DNA from: Acidimicrobiales bacterium
Lineage (GTDB): Bacteria > Actinomycetota > Acidimicrobiia > Acidimicrobiales > DASWMK01
Direction: 5' to 3'
Assembly: GCA_036399815.1 (NCBI GenBank)
Contig: DASWMK010000274.1
Coordinates: 1-42,270, forward strand
DNA: 42,270 bases
The notes below the pieces were generated by a model. It did no database searches, was not told the origin of the DNA, and saw only the letters and a list, made by a program, of their open reading frames with translations. Numbering within the stretch: the first letter of the stretch is position 1; each line of letters opens with the position of its first letter. The position numbers and the translations under genes are program-made. Below, in pieces: positions 5,151 to 17,147 of the stretch.

Positions 5151-6280
5151 CGGACGACGACCGCCGAGAGCCACTTCGTCTGCTGCACGCCGGGGCGGTT
5201 GGGGCCGATCAGGCGGAGCGGGAAGCCGTGATCGAGGTGGAGGGGCTCGCCGCCGAGGTCGAGGGCGAGGAGCGTGTCCGGGTCGGCGGCCTGGGCCGGG
5301 CTCAGGTCGGAGGTCCGGTAGATGCCGCCGTCCTGGAGCGAGGCCACCGTCGCCCCGGCGCCGTCGGCCGCGCCGGCCATGGCCAGCACGTCGCGGACGG
5401 GGACGCCCCGCCAGGTGGCCGTACTGCTCCAGCCCTCCACGCAGGCGATGGGCAGGGTGGCCTCCCGCTGGGGCATGGCCCGCAGGTCGTCGATGGACAG
5501 GGACAGCTCCCGCTCGACGGCGCCGGTCACCGACAGCCGCCAGGCAGGGGCGGTCGCGGCGTCGACCACGCCCGCGCCCGACGCGGTCGTGTTCACGGGC
5601 ACGCCCTGGGGCCCGGCCGACGGGCGCCGGGGCGCCACGAGCGCCAGCCGCTCGAGCGGCCGCACCGTCTGGCCGACCGTGAAGACGGTGACGGCGCCGG
5701 CCGCGGTGGCGACGGCGGCGAGGAAGCCCCTGCGGTCGAGGGCGGCGTCGGCCGGCGGGCCGTCGAGCAGCGGGCGGCTGGCGGCCGCGCCGCCCCGGCC
5801 GACGACCCTGGCCGTCGTCGCCCACGTCGCCCCGACGTGCACGACGAGCCCGCCGACGACCAGCCAGGCGACCCAGAAGTGGCCGGCCGTGAACGAGAAC
5901 GCCCACGGCCGCCAGCGGAACACGTTCCCGACGCCGGAGAGGAGGAGGAACAGGGAGCCGCCGACCAGCGGCACGAGGCTCACCCGCTCGACGGCGTGGG
6001 CCACCGAGCGGACCGGCGGCCAGCCCCAGAAGCGGGGGTAGGCGACCCACAGCTTGGCCAGGAGCAGCGGCACCGAGGCCAGCCCGGTGGCGACGTGCAG
6101 GCCCTGGGTGACCCGGTAGAGCCCGGCCGGCCGGGGCGGCCACCGGAACCACGACGGCGGGTCCTGGACCAGGTGGGAGAGGAGGCCGGTGAGGAAGCAG
6201 ACGGCGAAGGCCACGCCGAGGGCGACCCCGAGCACGGCCGCCAGTCGCTCGTCGTGCAGCCGGCTCCGGAACGGCATCAC
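5147..6280 (-). CDS. Membrane-anchored molybdopterin oxidoreductase, sulfite-oxidase family
   Basis: The 377-residue protein joins two parts. Residues 1-170 carry about four membrane helices with His residues (LSHLVQDPP, GLHVATGL, TAGHFWVAW, VVHVGATW), like a b-type cytochrome anchor. After a twin-Arg-like RRGFLAAVATAAGAVTVF segment comes a sulfite-oxidase-type molybdopterin domain from about residue 225. It includes LRAMPQREATLPIACVEGWS, in which Cys280 is the expected molybdenum ligand, and GFPLRLIGPNRPGVQQTKWL near the end. It probably works on the outer face, passing electrons to or from the membrane. The substrate cannot be told. Protein or solute sulfoxide reduction and sulfite oxidation are both possible. 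It is coupled to the small membrane protein downstream. Confidence 0.88.
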   Translation of the reverse strand: MMPFRSRLHDERLAAVLGVALGVAFAVCFLTGLLSHLVQDPPSWFRWPPRPAGLYRVTQGLHVATGLASVPLLLAKLWVAYPRFWGWPPVRSVAHAVERVSLVPLVGGSLFLLLSGVGNVFRWRPWAFSFTAGHFWVAWLVVGGLVVHVGATWATTARVVGRGGAAASRPLLDGPPADAALDRRGFLAAVATAAGAVTVFTVGQTVRPLERLALVAPRRPSAGPQGVPVNTTASGAGVVDAATAPAWRLSVTGAVERELSLSIDDLRAMPQREATLPIACVEGWSSTATWRGVPVRDVLAMAGAADGAGATVASLQDGGIYRTSDLSPAQAADPDTLLALDLGGEPLHLDHGFPLRLIGPNRPGVQQTKWLSAVVVR

Positions 6281-9892: not shown

Positions 9893-10666
9893 TCAGGACG
9901 GCGGGTCGACGGCGGCGACGACGTGGAAGCACCTCGCCACCCCCCGGAACGGGTCGCGGGACCCGGCCAGCCACTCCACCTCGTAGGCATCGGCGGCCGC
10001 CTCAGGGTCGGCCGGCATGCCGGCGTGCTCGGTGAACAGCCCCACGCCGTACCACTCCTGCACGTGGGCCCCGAACTTCTCGAGGAGGGCGGTGACCTCG
10101 GCGAGGCTCGGCTCGCTCGTCGGCAGGTACTGGGCGCCCGTCTCCCGGCCGGCCTCGAGCGTCGCCCTGGCCTCCTGCCAGCGGCCCTTGACGGCGCTGC
10201 GCATGGCGGCCGCCTCGGGGTTCAGCGACAGCAGCGACACCAGCCCGCCGGGCCGGACCGTCCCGACCACGCCGGCGACGAACGGGGCCGGCTCCTCCTC
10301 GTACATGAGGACGCTGTGGCAGCAGGCGACGTCGAAGTCGGACCCGACGACCGCGGGCGCGTCGAGCCCGTCGCCGAGGACCAGCTCGACCCGGGCCCGC
10401 ACCTCGGGCGGCTCGCCCTCGAGCCGGCGCCTCGCGAGGTCGAGCATGTTCGGGTCGAAGTCGAGCACGGTGACGGTGTGGCCGTCCCTGGCGAGGGTGA
10501 TGGCCTGCTGCCCGTAGCCGCCGCCGACGTCGACGATGCGCCGGGGCCCGGGCGGCACGTGGCGGGCGATCGCCCTGCGGATCAGCTCGAACGACAGCTG
10601 CCCGCGGTTGCGGGCGTACGCCTCCGCCAGCTGGGCGGCGTGGCGCGACCAGTGGTTGTCCCTCAT
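9893..10666 (-). CDS. SAM-dependent methyltransferase, CmoM/SmtA-like, of the peptide operon
   Basis: The 257-residue class I methyltransferase starts at an ATG preceded by a strong GAGGAGG ribosome site and also overlaps the upstream hydroxylase gene as ATGA. The SAM site is IVDVGGGYGQQAITLA (residues 44-59), followed by VTVLDFDPNMLDLARRRL. The layout, with GQLSFELIRR before the SAM site, a CCHSVLMYEEEP segment and VRPGGLVSLLSLNPEAAAMR, resembles CmoM/SmtA, which in E. coli methylates the carboxylate of a tRNA wobble carboxymethoxyuridine. As the last gene of a peptide-modification operon it more likely methylates the peptide, possibly a carboxylate; that is inference. A housekeeping tRNA role remains possible. 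Confidence 0.85.
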   Translation of the reverse strand: MRDNHWSRHAAQLAEAYARNRGQLSFELIRRAIARHVPPGPRRIVDVGGGYGQQAITLARDGHTVTVLDFDPNMLDLARRRLEGEPPEVRARVELVLGDGLDAPAVVGSDFDVACCHSVLMYEEEPAPFVAGVVGTVRPGGLVSLLSLNPEAAAMRSAVKGRWQEARATLEAGRETGAQYLPTSEPSLAEVTALLEKFGAHVQEWYGVGLFTEHAGMPADPEAAADAYEVEWLAGSRDPFRGVARCFHVVAAVDPPS

Positions 10667-11619
10667 GGTGCGACCTCCTCGGTGTGCTGTTCGAGCCGCG
10701 CGAACCAGGCACGACCCTCGTCGGTCCATGCCGCCTTCTCCCGCAGGACGGCGACCGCCCCCACGAGGTTGGCGAGCGACTCCTCGGCTCGCCGGGCCAC
10801 CTCGGCCGGCGCGCCGCCCTCGTCCCGCCACAGGGCCAGCCCCGTCGCCATCCGGGCGAGGGCGTACGCCGCGTGGACGGTCCCCGACACCGGCCGGGGA
10901 TCGGGGCGCAGCGGGTGGCCGGCGAGGTCGGCCCCGTTGGTGACGAAGGGCTGGAAGCGCCGGCGCAGGACGAGCGCGAGGTGGGCGCTCTCGTGGACGA
11001 GCATCTCGAAGGCGGCCGGGACGCTGTCGTTGTAGCGCTCGCCGACGAAGACGGCGCCGAACACCTCGTCGGCGGTCGCCGACCTGAAGCCGCCGCCCTC
11101 GACGTGGACGACGGCCCTGACCTGGAGGCGGAGCTCCGTCGCCGCCTCCGGCCAGACGCGGTAGAGGACGGCGAGCGCCCGGTCGACGTTGGTCCGCCGC
11201 GACCCGAGCGGCGCGGCGGCCAGCCGCATCGGGGGCTGGGGCCACAGCTGGGTCACCTGGGCGTCCACCGTCGCCACGCCCCAACGGGCCCACGGCTCGT
11301 CCCGGTCGGCGCCGACGTGCTCGGGCGCGGCGGAGGGCGTCCTCGACGCGGCCAGCAGGTCGCTCACCGGCAGCCCGCCGTCCGCCACGAGGTCAGGCTG
11401 CTCGACGGCGACGCGGGCGGCCCAGACGGCGCGGGGGTGCAGCGATCGGACGCCGTACGCCCGTCCGGCGCCCGTGTCGGCCCACCCGAGCCGGGTGGCC
11501 TGGTGGACGAGGCGGACGGCCAGGGCGCCGTGGTAGGCCCGCAGCCAGGCCGCCGTGCGCCCGGGGTCGAGGCCGACGGCGGCCGCCGTGCACGAGGGCG
11601 CCGCCGCGGGGCGGGTCAC
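10663..11619 (-). CDS. HExxH-type putative peptide beta-hydroxylase (stand-alone)
   Basis: The 318-residue protein belongs, by motif, to the HEXXH putative peptide-modification family. Characterised members are iron- and 2-oxoglutarate-dependent peptide beta-hydroxylases acting in RiPP pathways. The metal motif HESAH is at residues 209-213. It is followed by PFVTNG and HPLRPDPRPVSGTVHAAY, where Arg242 could hold 2-oxoglutarate and His249 is a candidate third metal ligand. Before the motif lies DEVFGAVFVGERY. It is plainly homologous, about half identical by eye, to the C-terminal domain of the MFS fusion protein in the same operon. The GTG start overlaps the M41-like gene as GTGA, and the stop overlaps the methyltransferase. 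A peptidase function is the main alternative for an HExxH protein. Confidence 0.85.
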   Translation of the reverse strand: MTRPAAAPSCTAAAVGLDPGRTAAWLRAYHGALAVRLVHQATRLGWADTGAGRAYGVRSLHPRAVWAARVAVEQPDLVADGGLPVSDLLAASRTPSAAPEHVGADRDEPWARWGVATVDAQVTQLWPQPPMRLAAAPLGSRRTNVDRALAVLYRVWPEAATELRLQVRAVVHVEGGGFRSATADEVFGAVFVGERYNDSVPAAFEMLVHESAHLALVLRRRFQPFVTNGADLAGHPLRPDPRPVSGTVHAAYALARMATGLALWRDEGGAPAEVARRAEESLANLVGAVAVLREKAAWTDEGRAWFARLEQHTEEVAP

Positions 11620-12221
11620 GCCGTCGCCTCCGCCGCCGGCGCCCGCTCGACGAGGGCCAGCACGTCGGCCTCCGTCAGCGACCACCCGTCGCCCGTCCCG
11701 GGGTGGAGCCCGGCGGCGACGCCGGCGAGGTCCGTCCCGGTGAGCCCGGCGACGACCGCCTCGATGGCGGCCCGCTCGGCCTCGACCCAGGCGACGGTGC
11801 GGGCCATCGCGGCGGCGAACGGCTCGGGCAGGAGGGCGTGCACCAGGTGCTGGAGGTCGGCCATCACGTCCGGCTCGGGCACGCCGAAGCCGCGGCACCA
11901 CAGGGTCAGGTCGCCGAGCCACGAGCGCGGCATGTGGTGACCGAGCACCACGAACTCGGCCGCGCTGCCGGCCATCACGAAGAGGAAGGCCGCAGCCGGG
12001 TCGGCGCGCACCCAGGCGAGGGGGTCGTCCGCCCCCATGACGACGCCGCCCGCCCGATGGCCGCCGCTGTGGGCCACCCACCCGCCCGGCGGCCGGACCC
12101 GCACCTCGGCGAAGCGGATGCCGTGCCGGGCGGCGGCGACCGCGTGGGCGGCCTCGTGGACGACGACGTGGGGCAGCACGCCGTGCCGGCCGCAGACCTC
12201 GTCGACGTCCACGCCGTTCAC
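11616..12221 (-). CDS. M41 (FtsH protease domain)-like stand-alone zinc peptidase
   Basis: The 201-residue protein has VVVHEAAHAVAAARHGIRFA, with HEAAH at residues 22-26. It then has MAGSAAEFVVLGHH (residues 83-96) and a WLGDLTLW segment with Asp104. This order of HEAxH, a GG/AG-x-AAE helix and a downstream Asp is that of the FtsH/M41 zinc peptidase domain, but no AAA ATPase part is attached. It sits between the two hydroxylase genes with 4-base overlaps on both sides, so it belongs to the pathway. Possible roles are leader-peptide cleavage, product degradation for self-protection, or a structural role. It is distinct from the HExxH hydroxylases: it lacks their DPRP and GTxHAAY motifs. Confidence 0.75.
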   Translation of the reverse strand: MNGVDVDEVCGRHGVLPHVVVHEAAHAVAAARHGIRFAEVRVRPPGGWVAHSGGHRAGGVVMGADDPLAWVRADPAAAFLFVMAGSAAEFVVLGHHMPRSWLGDLTLWCRGFGVPEPDVMADLQHLVHALLPEPFAAAMARTVAWVEAERAAIEAVVAGLTGTDLAGVAAGLHPGTGDGWSLTEADVLALVERAPAAEATA

Positions 12222-14563
12222 GACGGGACCGCGACCGGCAGGGCGCCGGCCCGCTCCTCCAGCCGGGCGAACCAGGCCCGCCCGGCGTCGGTCCAGGCCG
12301 CCTTGTCGCCGAGCACGGCGATCGTGGTGCACAGGTCGGCGCGGCACTGCTCGGCCCGCTCGGCCACCTCGGCGGGGGCGTCGGGGTCGCCGTCGCGCCA
12401 GCGCGCCAGCCCCGTCGCCATCCTGGCGAGGACGTAGGCCGCGTGGAGGGTGCCGGAGATCGGCCGGGGGTCGTCGCGGAGGGGGTGCATGGCCATCTCG
12501 TCGCCGTTGGTCACGAACGGCTCGAAGCGGGCCCGCAGGAACAGGGCGTGGTGGCCGCCCTCGTGGAGGATCATCTCGAAGGCCGCCGGCACCGTGTCGA
12601 GGTAGCGGTCGCCCACGAACACGGCGCCGAACACCTCGTCGAAGCTGGCCGACCCGAACATGGCGCCCTGCACGTGGACGATCGAGCGGACGTAGGAGTG
12701 GAACTCGACGGCCGCCTCGGGCCACACGTCCGCCAGGACGGCGAGCGCCTCGTCGACGTGGCGCCGGCGGTCGCCGAGGGGGAGGGGGGCGAGGCGGAGC
12801 CGGTCGTCGACGTCGATGCGCTGGGCGTACGACGCGAGGTTCTCGACCCCCCAGCCGACCCACCGCTCGGCCGTGCCGGCGCCGACGTGCTCGAGCACCG
12901 GCGCCGGGCCGCGGCCCTCGTCGAGCATGGCCCGCACCGGCACCGCCTGCCCGTCGAGCAGGGCGGGGTCCCTCGCCGCGATCCTGGCGGCCCACACGGC
13001 GCCGGGGTGGAGCCAGCGGACGTCGGCGGGGTCGGCCGAGCCGGGGGCGGCCCAGCCCAGCCGCTCCGCCTCGTGGACGAGGCGCCGGGCGAGGGCCTGG
13101 TAGTAGGCGACGGTCAGCGACGACGACACCCGGGGGTCGATGTCGGCGGCGACGATCTGGTCGTGGAACGTCTCGGGGAGGCGCCGGCGGGGGTCGTCCG
13201 GCTCGCGGCCGGGCGCGGCGTCGGTGGGGCTTCTGGCCGGCTCCGGCTGGCGGGCGGCGTCGGCCGGGCCGCCGGCGTCGGCGTCGGCGTCGGGGGCGGC
13301 CGTCTCGCCGGTGGCCGTCGCCCGGCCGGGGGACCGCAGCCCGAGGAGCAGCGGCGGCGTCACGCAGGCGAGGACGACGGCGGCGACGGTCAGCGCCGTC
13401 CGCTCACCGGCCATGGCGCCGACGGCGCCGCCGACCGCCAGGCCGGCGAGGGCCGCGACCTGCAGGATGTTGTTGGCCAGCGCCATGGTCCTGGCGACGG
13501 TGCCGCGGGCGGCGGCCTCGGCCTGGAGGCTGCCGAACACGGCGGCGATCACGATCGTCCCGCCGAAGGCGCCGGCGAGCTCGAAGTTGACGACGGCGGC
13601 ACCGCCGAGCCAGCCCGGCCCGACGAAGGGCAGGGCGGCGACCGACCACAGGGTGGCGAGGAGGCCGACGGCGCCCGTCCACCGCCCCATCCGCTCGGCC
13701 ACCCGGCCGACGAGGAACCCGCCGACCACGCCGCCCACGGCGCCGACGGCGAGGAGCAGCCCGATGGCCGACTCGCGCATGTCGAGGGCGTGCAGGCAGA
13801 ACAGGACGAAGACCGCCTCGGTGATCCCGTTCACCAGCGCGATCGCCGTCAGGCACCACACCCCGCGCCGGGTGGCCAGCTCGCGCCCGATCGCCACGAC
13901 CTCGCCGACCGAGGCCCGCCCCCTGGTGCGGGGGGCCGGCGGAGGAGCGGCGTCGGCGGGCGGCCGGATCCTGCGGGTCAGGAAGGCGCCGACGAGGAAC
14001 GAGACGGCGTCGGCCACCAGGATGACGGGGGCGGCGAGCACGGCGAGCAGCGCGCCGCCGGCCGCCTGCCCGGCGATGTCGGTGGCGCTCCTCGTGCCGC
14101 TCAGCCGGCCGCCGGCGGCGACGAGCTGGTCGCGTGGGACGAGCTCGACGACCACCGGCCCCGACGTCGCCGCGAGGCAGACGCCGATCACCGCCTTCAT
14201 CGCCACGATGGCGAGCAGGCGCTCGAAGGTGAGCGCGCCGAGCCACCACAGGAGCGGGACGAGGGCCACGAGGGCCCCGAGCACCACCTGCGCGGCGGCC
14301 ATGATCCCGAGGCGGGACCGGATCGAGTCCGACCACATCGCCGCGGGCACCTGGAGGAACAGCCCCGGCAGCATCCCGGCCGCGCCGAGGAGCGCCATCT
14401 GGGCCGGCGACGCGCCGAGCGTGGCGGCGGCGATGATCGGGACGACCACGATCGACACGGCCGACCCGGCGCCGGAGACGGCCAGCGCGGACCAGTACGT
14501 CCGGAAGCCGCGGTTGTTCCAGAGGCTCGGCCGGGTGCCGTCCGGCCCGCCGTGCTCGGCCAC
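12218..14563 (-). CDS. MFS exporter fused to an HExxH peptide hydroxylase domain
   Basis: One uninterrupted 781-residue frame. Residues 1-405 form an MFS transporter with about 12 membrane helices, beginning SLWNNRGFRTYWSALAVSGA and containing SDSIRSRLG in the first cytoplasmic loop. Residues 406-460 are an Ala/Asp/Pro-rich linker. Residues 460-781 are a complete HExxH domain (HEGGH at 667-671, HPLRDDPRPISGTLHAAY with His707), homologous to the stand-alone copy two genes downstream. The linker has no stop and no good start, so I read a true fusion. The GTG at 14563 lies 5 bases after the M29-like gene. The linker and catalytic domain should face the cytoplasm, putting hydroxylation at the export gate. 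The substrate is inferred to be the 51-residue peptide. Confidence 0.85.
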   Translation of the reverse strand: MAEHGGPDGTRPSLWNNRGFRTYWSALAVSGAGSAVSIVVVPIIAAATLGASPAQMALLGAAGMLPGLFLQVPAAMWSDSIRSRLGIMAAAQVVLGALVALVPLLWWLGALTFERLLAIVAMKAVIGVCLAATSGPVVVELVPRDQLVAAGGRLSGTRSATDIAGQAAGGALLAVLAAPVILVADAVSFLVGAFLTRRIRPPADAAPPPAPRTRGRASVGEVVAIGRELATRRGVWCLTAIALVNGITEAVFVLFCLHALDMRESAIGLLLAVGAVGGVVGGFLVGRVAERMGRWTGAVGLLATLWSVAALPFVGPGWLGGAAVVNFELAGAFGGTIVIAAVFGSLQAEAAARGTVARTMALANNILQVAALAGLAVGGAVGAMAGERTALTVAAVVLACVTPPLLLGLRSPGRATATGETAAPDADADAGGPADAARQPEPARSPTDAAPGREPDDPRRRLPETFHDQIVAADIDPRVSSSLTVAYYQALARRLVHEAERLGWAAPGSADPADVRWLHPGAVWAARIAARDPALLDGQAVPVRAMLDEGRGPAPVLEHVGAGTAERWVGWGVENLASYAQRIDVDDRLRLAPLPLGDRRRHVDEALAVLADVWPEAAVEFHSYVRSIVHVQGAMFGSASFDEVFGAVFVGDRYLDTVPAAFEMILHEGGHHALFLRARFEPFVTNGDEMAMHPLRDDPRPISGTLHAAYVLARMATGLARWRDGDPDAPAEVAERAEQCRADLCTTIAVLGDKAAWTDAGRAWFARLEERAGALPVAVPS

Positions 14564-14568
14564 GACCG

Positions 14569-15690
14569 CTACCCGACGAGCGCCCGTGAGGCGCCGGTCG
14601 CGGCGACGCGGAGCTGGCGGTAGCCGAACCCGCAGCAGTCGCCGGTGATGTCCTCGTCGCGGACGTCGGGGTGGGCGGCGCACGTGACGGCCAGGTCGTG
14701 CAGGTCGAGCACGCCGGGCTCGCCGTCGATCTCGATCCTGGCGCCGTCGGCGATCAGGTCGAGGTGGATGTCCTCGAGGTAGGACACGCGGGACGGCGGC
14801 TGGTTGTGCTGCCCGAACCCGACGTGGACGCCGGGGCGGCGCTCGTTCAGGTGCGAGTTCTCGGGGAGGAACCGGCGCACGCCGACGTTCGTCCCGAAGC
14901 CCAGCTCGCCGACGTTGCGGCCGTACGGGCGGGTGAAGCACAGGCCGACCAGCTCGTGGATCCGCGGGTTGGCGCAGGAGAAGTCGACGGCCCGGCCGCC
15001 CTCGACCTCGACGGTCAGCGGCGTGTCGGCCAGCCGCATGTCGAGGCGGCTGATGACGTTGCAGTTCACCGCGCCGTCGGCCACGAGGACGCCCTCGATG
15101 GCCGCCGGGTAGGTGGCGATCTCGCCGGCGGGGAGGATCGTGAAGTGGCCGCCGCGGTGGAGGCCGCGGTTGCTGATCCAGTCGTAGCGGGACGAGTCCA
15201 GCTCGACCTGGAGATCGGTTCCCCCGTCGGACTTTATGCGAATTGTCTTTCGCCCATTGAGCCGACTCAGCAACGTCGCATTGCGCTGCGAGAGCTCGTC
15301 GGGCGTGAGGTTCAGGCCCTCGGTGAAGAACTCCTCCGAGGCACTGATGATGCGGACGATCTGGCAGTCGTCGCCGTACTCCTCGAGCACGCTCGTGAGC
15401 GGGCCGAAGTGCGACATCGACTCCTTCTCCAGGGTGAAGATCACCAGGCGCCCGGCGAGGTCGTCCTTCGCGGGCAGCACGCCCCGCAGCCGCTCCTCGA
15501 ACGCCTCGTCGACGAGGGGCCGCATGGCGACCAGGCTCGGCTCGACGCCCCTGGCCTTCACGCCGGCGGCGAGCCACGCCGCCGCGTCACGGCTGTCGGG
15601 CGAGTACACGACGACGACGGCATCCCGCCGCTCCAGCCCGGCGTAGGCGGACAACAGCCTGTCGACGCCCCGAAAGATCTCTGGTCCCAC
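14569..15690 (-). CDS. M29 aminopeptidase-like protein of the peptide operon
   Basis: The 373-residue protein starts at a GTG with an AAGGAG site six bases upstream. The N-terminal half is an alpha/beta domain (LSAYAGLERRDAVVVVYSPD). The C-terminal half carries the metal-ligand pattern of M29 (aminopeptidase T/PepS): VGELGFGTNVG with Glu262, GVHVGFGQHNQ with His289, and IHLDLIADG with His309 and Asp311. Spacings are close to but shorter than in classical M29 enzymes, and I could not place the first Glu ligand with confidence. It may trim the leader or the N-terminus of the product. Alternatively it may be a catalytically altered relative with another role in peptide tailoring. Confidence 0.75.
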   Translation of the reverse strand: MGPEIFRGVDRLLSAYAGLERRDAVVVVYSPDSRDAAAWLAAGVKARGVEPSLVAMRPLVDEAFEERLRGVLPAKDDLAGRLVIFTLEKESMSHFGPLTSVLEEYGDDCQIVRIISASEEFFTEGLNLTPDELSQRNATLLSRLNGRKTIRIKSDGGTDLQVELDSSRYDWISNRGLHRGGHFTILPAGEIATYPAAIEGVLVADGAVNCNVISRLDMRLADTPLTVEVEGGRAVDFSCANPRIHELVGLCFTRPYGRNVGELGFGTNVGVRRFLPENSHLNERRPGVHVGFGQHNQPPSRVSYLEDIHLDLIADGARIEIDGEPGVLDLHDLAVTCAAHPDVRDEDITGDCCGFGYRQLRVAATGASRALVG

Positions 15691-15737
15691 CGCCTGCTCC
15701 TTGCTCTGGCGTGATGTCCGGTCGGCTGCCGCAGCCG

Positions 15738-15760
15738 GTCCGGGGGGCGAGCCCCCGGAC
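15738..15760 (-). terminator. Hairpin after the precursor gene (partial terminator or attenuator)
   Basis: A perfect 9-bp stem GTCCGGGGG / CCCCCGGAC encloses a GCGAG loop, with no run of U after it. It lies 19 bases downstream of the precursor stop and before the ribosome site of the M29-like gene. In peptide operons such a hairpin commonly stabilises or partly terminates the short precursor message, so that more precursor than enzyme is made. The placement supports that reading; its efficiency cannot be judged. Confidence 0.6.
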
Positions 15761-15779
15761 CCGCTGCGTCCAGTGGTGG

Positions 15780-15935
15780 CTACTGCTCGTTCGTCTTGTA
15801 CGCGATGTACCAGGCGACCTCGTTGCTGTCGGTCCGGTCGAAGGCGGACGGCTCCAGCGCGTACTCGGCCTCGAGGGCGGTCATCTCGCCCATGACGCCG
15901 GCGACGAGGTCCTGCATCTGCTGCTCTGAACTCAT
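15780..15935 (-). CDS. Candidate RiPP precursor peptide, 51 residues
   Basis: A short gene with a good ribosome site (GCGAGG, 7 bases before ATG) at the head of the peptide operon. The first half, MSSEQQMQDLVAGVMGEMTA, is helical, acidic and Met/Gln-rich like a leader. The second half is LEPSAFDRTDSNEVAWY followed by IAYKTNEQ: polar, with three Asp/Asn candidates and an aromatic AWYIAY patch, and no Cys, His or Gly-rich core. The lack of Cys rules out thioether or thiazole chemistry and fits side-chain hydroxylation or carboxylate methylation. No double-Gly cleavage site is seen. Precursor identity is inferred from size, position, the hairpin behind it and the enzymes that follow. Confidence 0.7.
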   Translation of the reverse strand: MSSEQQMQDLVAGVMGEMTALEAEYALEPSAFDRTDSNEVAWYIAYKTNEQ

Positions 15936-16354
15936 GACGTACCTCGCAGTCGTTGTGGGGAACTTGTCGGTGTCCGGGTGAACGACGAGGCGTCACCGGC
16001 CAGCGGAGTCGAACATGGGAAGGTCCCCGCCGACGCTTGGATGACCCGCCAATCCCGTACGAGAGTCGACTATACGACGGGTCCGTCATCCTGCCTAGGG
16101 GTGCGTGACTTTTTTGTTACGAAATACAATCGCCGGCATGACAATAAACGCTGAACCCGCTGGTCAGGCCGCCCGACCGGATGCCGGAACCGTGTGACGA
16201 CGCCGATCTGCGAGCGCGGCCATATGCCCGACTTCTGTGAAATGAGGGGAGGTGAGCGGAGGCCGATATCCCGATCGGAGCGCCGGCCGGCACCCCGGGC
16301 GGCCGGTCGTCGGGGACGCGACGGGGGAGGCCTCTGCTACCCTGACCCCTCCCT
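15936..16354. other. Intergenic region between the peptide operon and the tRNA genes
   Basis: These 419 bases hold no gene I can support. The half nearest the precursor should carry the operon promoter and a leader. A small AT-rich block at about 16107-16150 (with CTTTTTTGTTACG) stands out from the GC-rich surroundings and may be a regulator or RNA polymerase contact site. The part just before 16355 should hold the tRNA promoter; no clear consensus is seen. Confidence 0.5.
16069..16074 (-). promoter_or_regulatory. Possible -10 element for the peptide operon
   Basis: On the minus strand the hexamer TATAGT is one of few AT-rich hexamers upstream of the precursor. It would give a leader of about 125 bases. 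No matching -35 hexamer is found 17 bases further upstream, so an activator or another sigma factor would be needed. The AT-rich block at about 16107-16150 lies just upstream of it. Confidence 0.25.
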
Positions 16355-16528: not shown

Positions 16529-17147
16529 CCGGTCCCGCCGCCCGGCGGTGGCGGACGTCGCGCAGCGCCGGCGGCGCCGCCCGGGCAACCCTGCCGCTCG
16601 GTCGAGGCGGCGGCCGACCGCCCACCGCCTTTCCGACGGCCGGCGCGTCGATCCGACCCGGCCTGCCCGTCGCCACCGAATGCGCGCCGGTCCGGCGGCC
16701 GACCGCGGCGACCCCCGCGTGGAGCACCCGCACGGCCGCCGGCCCGGCACCGCGGCGCAACGGCGGCGACGCGGTCGTCGAGCGCCCGCAGGCCGACAGC
16801 TCGGCACCGCGGCGCGACGGCGGCGCACCCGCTCGTCGAGGACCCGCGCGGCCGACAGCTCGGCACCGCGGCGCGACGGCGGCGACGCGCTCGTCGAGGA
16901 CCCGCGCGGCCGCCGGCTCGGCGCCGCGGCGCGACGGCGGCGACGCGGTCGTCGAGCGCCCGCACGCCCGTCGGCTCGCCACCGCGGCGCGTCGAACGGC
17001 CGACGGCTCGAGAGGTTCGATCGGGACGTCCCGGAGCGGGCGACAGCCGCCGGCGCGCCGACCGCTCACGCCGTCCCGTTCGTCGCCGGTGGTGGCGGTC
17101 GCCCCTCCCGGAGCAGCGGCCGACGCGCTACCGGCCGGTCGGCGCGG
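16529..17147. other. Gene-free region downstream of tRNA-Phe
   Basis: About 620 bases between tRNA-Phe and bldC. Every open frame here is an Arg/Ala/Pro-rich artefact of GC-rich sequence, with no start site or family I can support. The main content is the tandem repeat at 16705-17000. The rest, including 17000-17147, shows nothing recognisable beyond CG-rich short inverted repeats that may serve as terminators for the converging tRNA and bldC transcripts. Confidence 0.55.
16705..17000. repeat. About 58-bp tandem repeat, roughly five copies
   Basis: Units begin at 16745, 16802, 16861, 16919 and 16977, each with C-G-G/C-C-A/G-CCGCGGCGC. They run through GACGGCGGCGACGCG, then GTCGTCGAG and a CCCGC-GGCCG block, ending in GGCT or AGCT. 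Spacings are 57, 59, 58 and 58 bases. A half unit precedes the array (about 16705-16744), and a fading partial unit ends it near 17000. As 58 is not a multiple of three, the array is not a protein repeat. There are no spacers, so it is not a CRISPR array. Each unit contains CCGCGG and GTCGTCGAG-like self-complementary parts and could fold. Confidence 0.75.

Follow-up and report, generated by a model that had tools for sequence, protein, structure and literature searches.

The unannotated open reading frame (ORF) of 51 amino acids at the head of an operon in the window, that is, the whole stretch of 42,270 nucleotides analyzed here, is very probably the gene of a RiPP-type precursor. A short precursor gene stands beside modifying enzymes and is conserved with them, which is the pattern by which RiPP clusters are recognized, and the reading of the ORF in a preliminary description as the precursor of a peptide-modification operon was supported. 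With moderate confidence, the cluster is best explained as a RiPP that is crocagin-like without being crocagin, in which an M29-like protein would hold or process the core and HExxH enzymes would hydroxylate it.

Precursor gene and operon

The precursor ORF (MSSEQQMQDLVAGVMGEMTALEAEYALEPSAFDRTDSNEVAWYIAYKTNEQ; positions 15780..15935, minus strand) contains no Cys. A ribosome-binding GAGG (15943..15946, minus strand) lies 7 nt 5' of the ATG. The ORF and its ribosome site, as first described, are real, and the GC contents of the three codon positions (0.61/0.37/0.96) were coding-like. The leader occupies approximately residues 1–35, and the conserved core block, AWYIAY, is close to the C terminus. 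Between the stop codon and the start of the M29-like gene there are 89 nt, in which a G+C-rich hairpin (15730..15768, minus strand) follows the ORF directly, as had been stated, beginning 11 nt past the stop, with a minimum free energy of −43.3 kcal/mol for a 91-nt stretch (z −2.19). A strong hairpin was present 3' of the short ORF in all six loci folded out of the 12 (the window and five others; z −2.2 to −5.4), and it likely serves as an attenuator or mRNA stabilizer.

The 51-aa peptide was compared with 99 genomes (its own and 98 relatives), and one real match was obtained, in its own genome. The remaining 11 genomes with matches at E ≤1 gave values of 0.042 or worse; ten of these matches lay in open frames of 120–1093 aa, and the eleventh in a 35-aa frame with a stop. 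Since none of the 98 relatives gave a real match, a housekeeping small protein was rejected, in agreement with the earlier expectation that the ORF would not be uniformly conserved.

The operon genes form an unbroken run of 5.8 kb between 15690 and 9893, in which the stop of one gene overlaps the start of the next by 4 nt at three junctions, and the stretch of modification genes said to follow the ORF was supported. Gene calls in the window relied on the ORFs together with start sites and family matches, as a simple GC-frame method picked wrong frames for the main genes. All of them are on the minus strand. Directly downstream of the precursor lies the gene of an M29-superfamily metalloprotein of 373 aa (14569..15690), followed by a single 781-aa ORF (12218..14563), in which an MFS transporter half (13334..14563) is joined in frame to an Ala/Pro/Asp-rich linker and the first aKG-HExxH hydroxylase domain (together 12218..13333). 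This single reading frame was not mentioned in the preliminary description. As in-frame ATG/GTG codons occur between the two parts at residues 384, 401, and 479, it is possible that the HExxH part is translated separately. The next gene encodes a predicted metallopeptidase of 201 aa with the motif HEAAH (11616..12221) and a weak likeness to M50; its Pfam matches were all below threshold, M50 being the first (E 0.0012), and a search for a solved relative gave none. This protein is a candidate leader protease. It is followed by the second aKG-HExxH hydroxylase (318 aa; 10663..11619) and a class I SAM-dependent methyltransferase (257 aa; 9893..10666; Pfam Methyltransf_11, 54.9 bits, cut-off 21.2). 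The methyltransferase had been called CmoM-like, and the general likeness stood, as CmoM was the best named model; however, its 71.4 bits fell far below the model cut-off of 366.

Their profile scores place both HExxH domains of the window among the aKG-HExxH peptide hydroxylases, which agrees with the earlier assignment. Domain 1 (HEGGH) and domain 2 (HESAH) scored 75.3 and 73.2 bits, respectively, with TIGR04267 (aKG-HExxH peptide beta-hydroxylase; cut-off 40), and a profile of the window domains matched the solved hydroxylase ChlH (8s5f) at E 5e-9. Compared with the known systems of this family (ChlH, PflC/PosC, and the Pes enzyme), the window operon has neither a radical SAM enzyme nor an MNIO, a partner set that was not found in the material searched, and one of its domains shares a reading frame with an MFS transporter.

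Distribution of related loci

A scan of genome contigs with both HExxH domains yielded two Streptomyces loci, L013 and L014, both with the order short ORF, M29-like gene (60% identical to that of the window), MFS, JmjC_2, and HExxH. With a profile built from three M29-like proteins, matches at E ≤1e-40 were obtained in 9 of 392 Streptomyces genomes, including that of L013, and in a wider sample of the class, two of 374 genomes matched at E ≤1e-30, namely G763 (the same as L013) and G1168 (4.1 Mb). Besides these nine Streptomyces genomes, M29-like relatives were accordingly found on one more contig from Streptomyces and in a single additional genome within the class. The profile of 11 M29-like proteins matched one of 326 genomes of the phylum, which was the genome of the window itself. 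HExxH profile A1 likewise found itself alone among 397 genomes of its own order and matched two of 396 genomes of the phylum, the second being G548 (L036), in which no M29-like gene was present within 19 kb. Plasmid records contained one remote aminopeptidase (27% identity). Because so few genomes matched the M29-like profile (9/392, 2/374, and 1/326), the system is rare and patchy. Homologues of the crocagin proteins CgnB and CgnE have been described from approximately 100 genomes, some of them of Actinobacteria, together with RiPPER precursor candidates (PMC10070186), and some of the present loci may already be in that list. In all, 12 loci were examined, with the window included.

Short ORFs of the related loci

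A short ORF was present immediately 5' of the M29-like gene in 12 of the 12 loci (11 of 11 outside the window), and a short ORF at the same position in relatives with the same enzymes, as the preliminary description had expected, was thus found. The six main Streptomyces short ORFs (L013, L014, and L028–L031) are mutually close and end in AWFIAT, AWFVAT, or AWFVST. The corresponding block is EVAWYIAYKT in the window, EAMYIAYGT in L046, GMWRITYST in L032, GLWQIPPAAC in L033, and SAWETED in L034 and L035. Exactly one Trp occurs in 11 of the 12 ORFs; L046 has none and carries Met in its place.

The window ORF was aligned with the six Streptomyces ORFs with a Smith-Waterman z of 5.8, a score reached by none of 5000 shuffles and none of 1049 control ORFs (other ORFs of 30–90 aa); therefore, the likeness exceeds chance. 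Against the same six, the leader half alone was reached by 21 of 5000 shuffles and the core half alone by 4 of 5000, so both halves carry signal. The short ORFs of L032 and L046 gave z values of 7.7 (against seven) and 7.0 (against six), respectively, and the comparison of the window ORF with L046 alone was weak (reached by 126 of 5000 shuffles). When a profile HMM was built from the six Streptomyces precursors, the window ORF ranked first among 273 ORFs of the window at E 0.41; this model was too narrow to decide, and shuffles and control ORFs were used instead. The short ORFs of L033–L035 had no similarity to the others beyond that of shuffles and were counted by position alone. Among the six main Streptomyces precursors, pN/pS was 0.10–0.34 in six pairs and 0.44 in the more distant pair L013/L031; the pair L034/L035 gave 0.59.

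The features in common are a leader of helical character and the core motif A-[WM]-[YF]-[IV]-A. The helical, acidic leader half of the first reading was supported. The same reading had named Asp and Asn as hydroxylation targets, and this was rejected because the conserved block has neither and because His, Gln, and Pro are likewise modified by characterized members of the aKG-HExxH family (PMC12636437, PMC13060819). The conserved block is also unlike the substrates of the known aKG-HExxH enzymes (Asp/His, Gln, and Pro). As this block is what is conserved, the putative hydroxylation targets most likely lie within A-W-Y-I-A-Y.

Partner genes

The sole constant pair across the loci was the short ORF and the M29-like gene. 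The HExxH motif is intact in both window domains and in L013, L014, L028, L029, L030, and L031; it is degenerate in L032 (REVSH, with TIGR04267 still at 45.8 bits), and the HExxH relative of L046 has no motif and no NCBIfam match. No HExxH gene was found in L033, L034, or L035. JmjC_2 is present in all six main Streptomyces clusters and absent from the window operon, with three matches elsewhere in the genome of the window. L034 and L035 have a methyltransferase gene downstream and an MFS gene upstream. With the HExxH enzyme degenerate in two relatives and not found in three, HExxH hydroxylation is not the step common to all, and the M29-like protein appears to be the constant component of the system. 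The M29-like gene, which adjoins the precursor and is its most constant partner, had been overlooked in the preliminary description.

Several of these loci showed additional features. The motif-less HExxH relatives of L032 (10018–11256) and L046 (8152–9084) stand beside intact M29-like genes and are possible pseudoenzyme peptide carriers. In L033 (1158–8012), two ABC transporter genes, a P450 gene, and a carbamoyltransferase gene lie next to the short ORF and the M29-like gene; a carbamoyltransferase is known from crocagin, too. In L030 (5994–8282), a gene with a lantibiotic dehydratase N-terminal domain lies just upstream of the precursor, in a neighboring or mixed cluster.

M29-like protein

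The M29-like proteins of the relatives are 39–62% identical to that of the window, and two further matches in its own genome were partial and weak (E 6e-9 and 4e-4). The only Pfam match was PF02073 at 14.4 bits, below the gathering cut-off of 27, and no NCBIfam match was obtained at E ≤0.1. Six putative metal ligands, E190, E262, E283, H289, H309, and D311, were invariant in 12 of 12 sequences. The C-terminal tail HP...DED...CC (residues 340–354 in the window, DED...DCC) was equally invariant in all 12, which suggests a special role. An ordinary M29 peptidase was rejected as a label for this neighboring gene.

CgnB binds two zinc ions via E161, E252, E274, H280, H291, and D293 (PMC10070186). 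The spacing of E283/H289 is identical to that of CgnB E274/H280, and that of H309/D311 to that of CgnB H291/D293; by order and spacing, we infer that the putative ligands of the window protein correspond to those of CgnB. At the sequence level, no match to CgnB or CgnE was obtained, as a profile of the 11 M29-like proteins reached neither at E ≤10 among PDB sequences.

Structures were predicted for the window protein (pLDDT 74.9) and for the L028 homologue (pLDDT 80.4), and both models matched the M29 superfamily. With the L028 model, nine solved entries stood clear of the next (Z 8.7). The best match was 2,5-dihydroxypyridine dioxygenase (Z 24.4 and 24.3), followed by M29 aminopeptidases (Z 19.5–21.0), CgnB (Z 16.8 over 265 residues), and CgnE (Z 16.6 over 272 residues). 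With the poorer window model, the dioxygenase (Z 15.2) and aminopeptidases (11.3–13.1) led, and CgnE (Z 9.1) and CgnB (Z 8.8) were near unrelated entries. The scores thus rank the dioxygenase and aminopeptidases above CgnB and CgnE, which are shorter proteins. CgnB and CgnE were not among the Foldseek matches listed and were seen in the Z-score structural comparison. Identity in the structural alignments with the dioxygenase and aminopeptidases was 9–17%. As the sequence profiles fail to reach CgnB/CgnE and the window-model scores lie near those of unrelated entries, the idea that the M29-like protein works like CgnB is put forward as a hypothesis, and the protein is not filed as a CgnB member.

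Comparison with crocagin and proposed pathway

The crocagin system comprises the precursor CgnA, the M29-derived peptide-binding proteins CgnB and CgnE, the 2OG dioxygenase CgnC, and the methyltransferase CgnL. The precursor is bound by CgnB and CgnE, which apparently deliver it to CgnC for hydroxylation of the Tyr and Trp beta-carbons, and CgnB has been proposed to drive an elimination with its zinc (PMC10070186). The window operon resembles this system in its short precursor with aromatic core residues, its M29-fold protein with the ligands E, E, E-x5-H, and H-x-D, its 2OG-type oxygenase, its methyltransferase, and its exporter. It differs in having a single M29-like copy instead of CgnB and CgnE, HExxH enzymes instead of CgnC, and an acidic instead of a basic leader; no serine hydrolase like CgnD was seen in the window operon. 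Moreover, the crocagin core is a C-terminal Tyr-Trp, whereas that of the window is AWYIAYKTNEQ and those of Streptomyces are AWFIAT/AWFVAT. A plain crocagin member was rejected.

In the proposed pathway, the amphipathic leader (QMQDLVAGVMGEMTALEAEYAL) and the core would be held by the M29-like protein, as CgnB and CgnE hold the crocagin precursor. The HExxH enzymes, with Fe(II) and 2-oxoglutarate, would hydroxylate at least one residue within A-W-Y-I-A-Y, with beta-carbons as the most likely sites, and the M29-like protein, through its putative dinuclear metal site, would then perform a further step (elimination, cyclization, or trimming). The HEAAH protein would cut off the leader, the methyltransferase would cap the product, and the MFS half would export it; the hairpin would keep the precursor mRNA above the enzyme mRNA.

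Other roles of the M29-like protein and the short ORF were also considered. It is rather unlikely that the M29-like protein trims the leader as an aminopeptidase while the HExxH enzymes alone modify the core. This role would fit the retention of the six ligand positions, the fold shared with M29 aminopeptidases, and PF02073 as the sole Pfam match; however, that match is below its cut-off, and no aminopeptidase activity was observed for the aminopeptidase-derived CgnB and CgnE (PMC10070186). In addition, the M29-like gene persists in loci with a degenerate HExxH or none found, so that under this reading L034 and L035 would have no modifying enzyme other than a methyltransferase, and the invariant DED...CC tail and the operon context set the protein apart from the aminopeptidases as well as from the dioxygenase with which it has the fold in common. 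An oxidative enzyme whose metal acts on the aromatic block, like 2,5-dihydroxypyridine 5,6-dioxygenase, appears improbable, even though that dioxygenase was clearly the best structural match with both models (Z 24.4 against ≤21.0 for L028 and 15.2 against ≤13.1 for the window) and clusters such as L034 and L035 have no recognized oxygenase. In the aligned stretch, the dioxygenase has Phe opposite the invariant E190, a sign that the two metal sites may differ. Finally, the short ORF is very unlikely to encode a small protein that assists or regulates the enzymes instead of serving as their substrate. Its leader half is as conserved as its core within the Streptomyces group, but the C-terminal block and the tail differ from one group to another, and the ORF is always ahead of the enzymes and accompanied by an exporter and hydroxylases.

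Beyond the crocagin-like reading of the window, a broader one can be offered tentatively, namely a family of RiPPs whose hallmark is an M29-superfamily metalloprotein that carries the invariant DED...CC tail and acts on or presents an aromatic A-[WM]-[YF]-[IV]-A core. The oxygenases associated with it (HExxH, JmjC_2, and P450) would be exchangeable and in places decayed to HExxH-less forms or missing; thus, the M29-like metal center itself would do the shared chemistry.

RiPPs, aKG-HExxH enzymes, and M29-derived peptide-binding proteins are each already known. In searches of the literature that covered open PMC papers, neither this combination nor the aromatic core family nor the MFS-HExxH ORF was found, and in the literature considered, crocagin was the sole case of M29-derived proteins at work in RiPP biosynthesis, where the role of their metal site is still a proposal. 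The operon and its relatives are small single-copy systems with natural variation in the core and the oxygenase partner, for which some loci have none found. This variation makes the role of the M29-like metal site directly testable. Another question, raised by the ORF that joins MFS and hydroxylase in frame and by the HExxH partners that have decayed, is whether such proteins double as peptide carriers.

Two further observations were made. In G548, L036 (4522–7009) contains a JmjC_2-like gene, a short ORF (5753–5983) with a similarly acidic leader-like start, and an HExxH gene, and is perhaps a sister RiPP type. In the window, a G+C-rich stretch (16740–17000) lying between tRNA genes and the gene that follows holds, as seen by eye, several near-copies of a unit around CACCGCGGCGCGACGGCGGCGACGCG.
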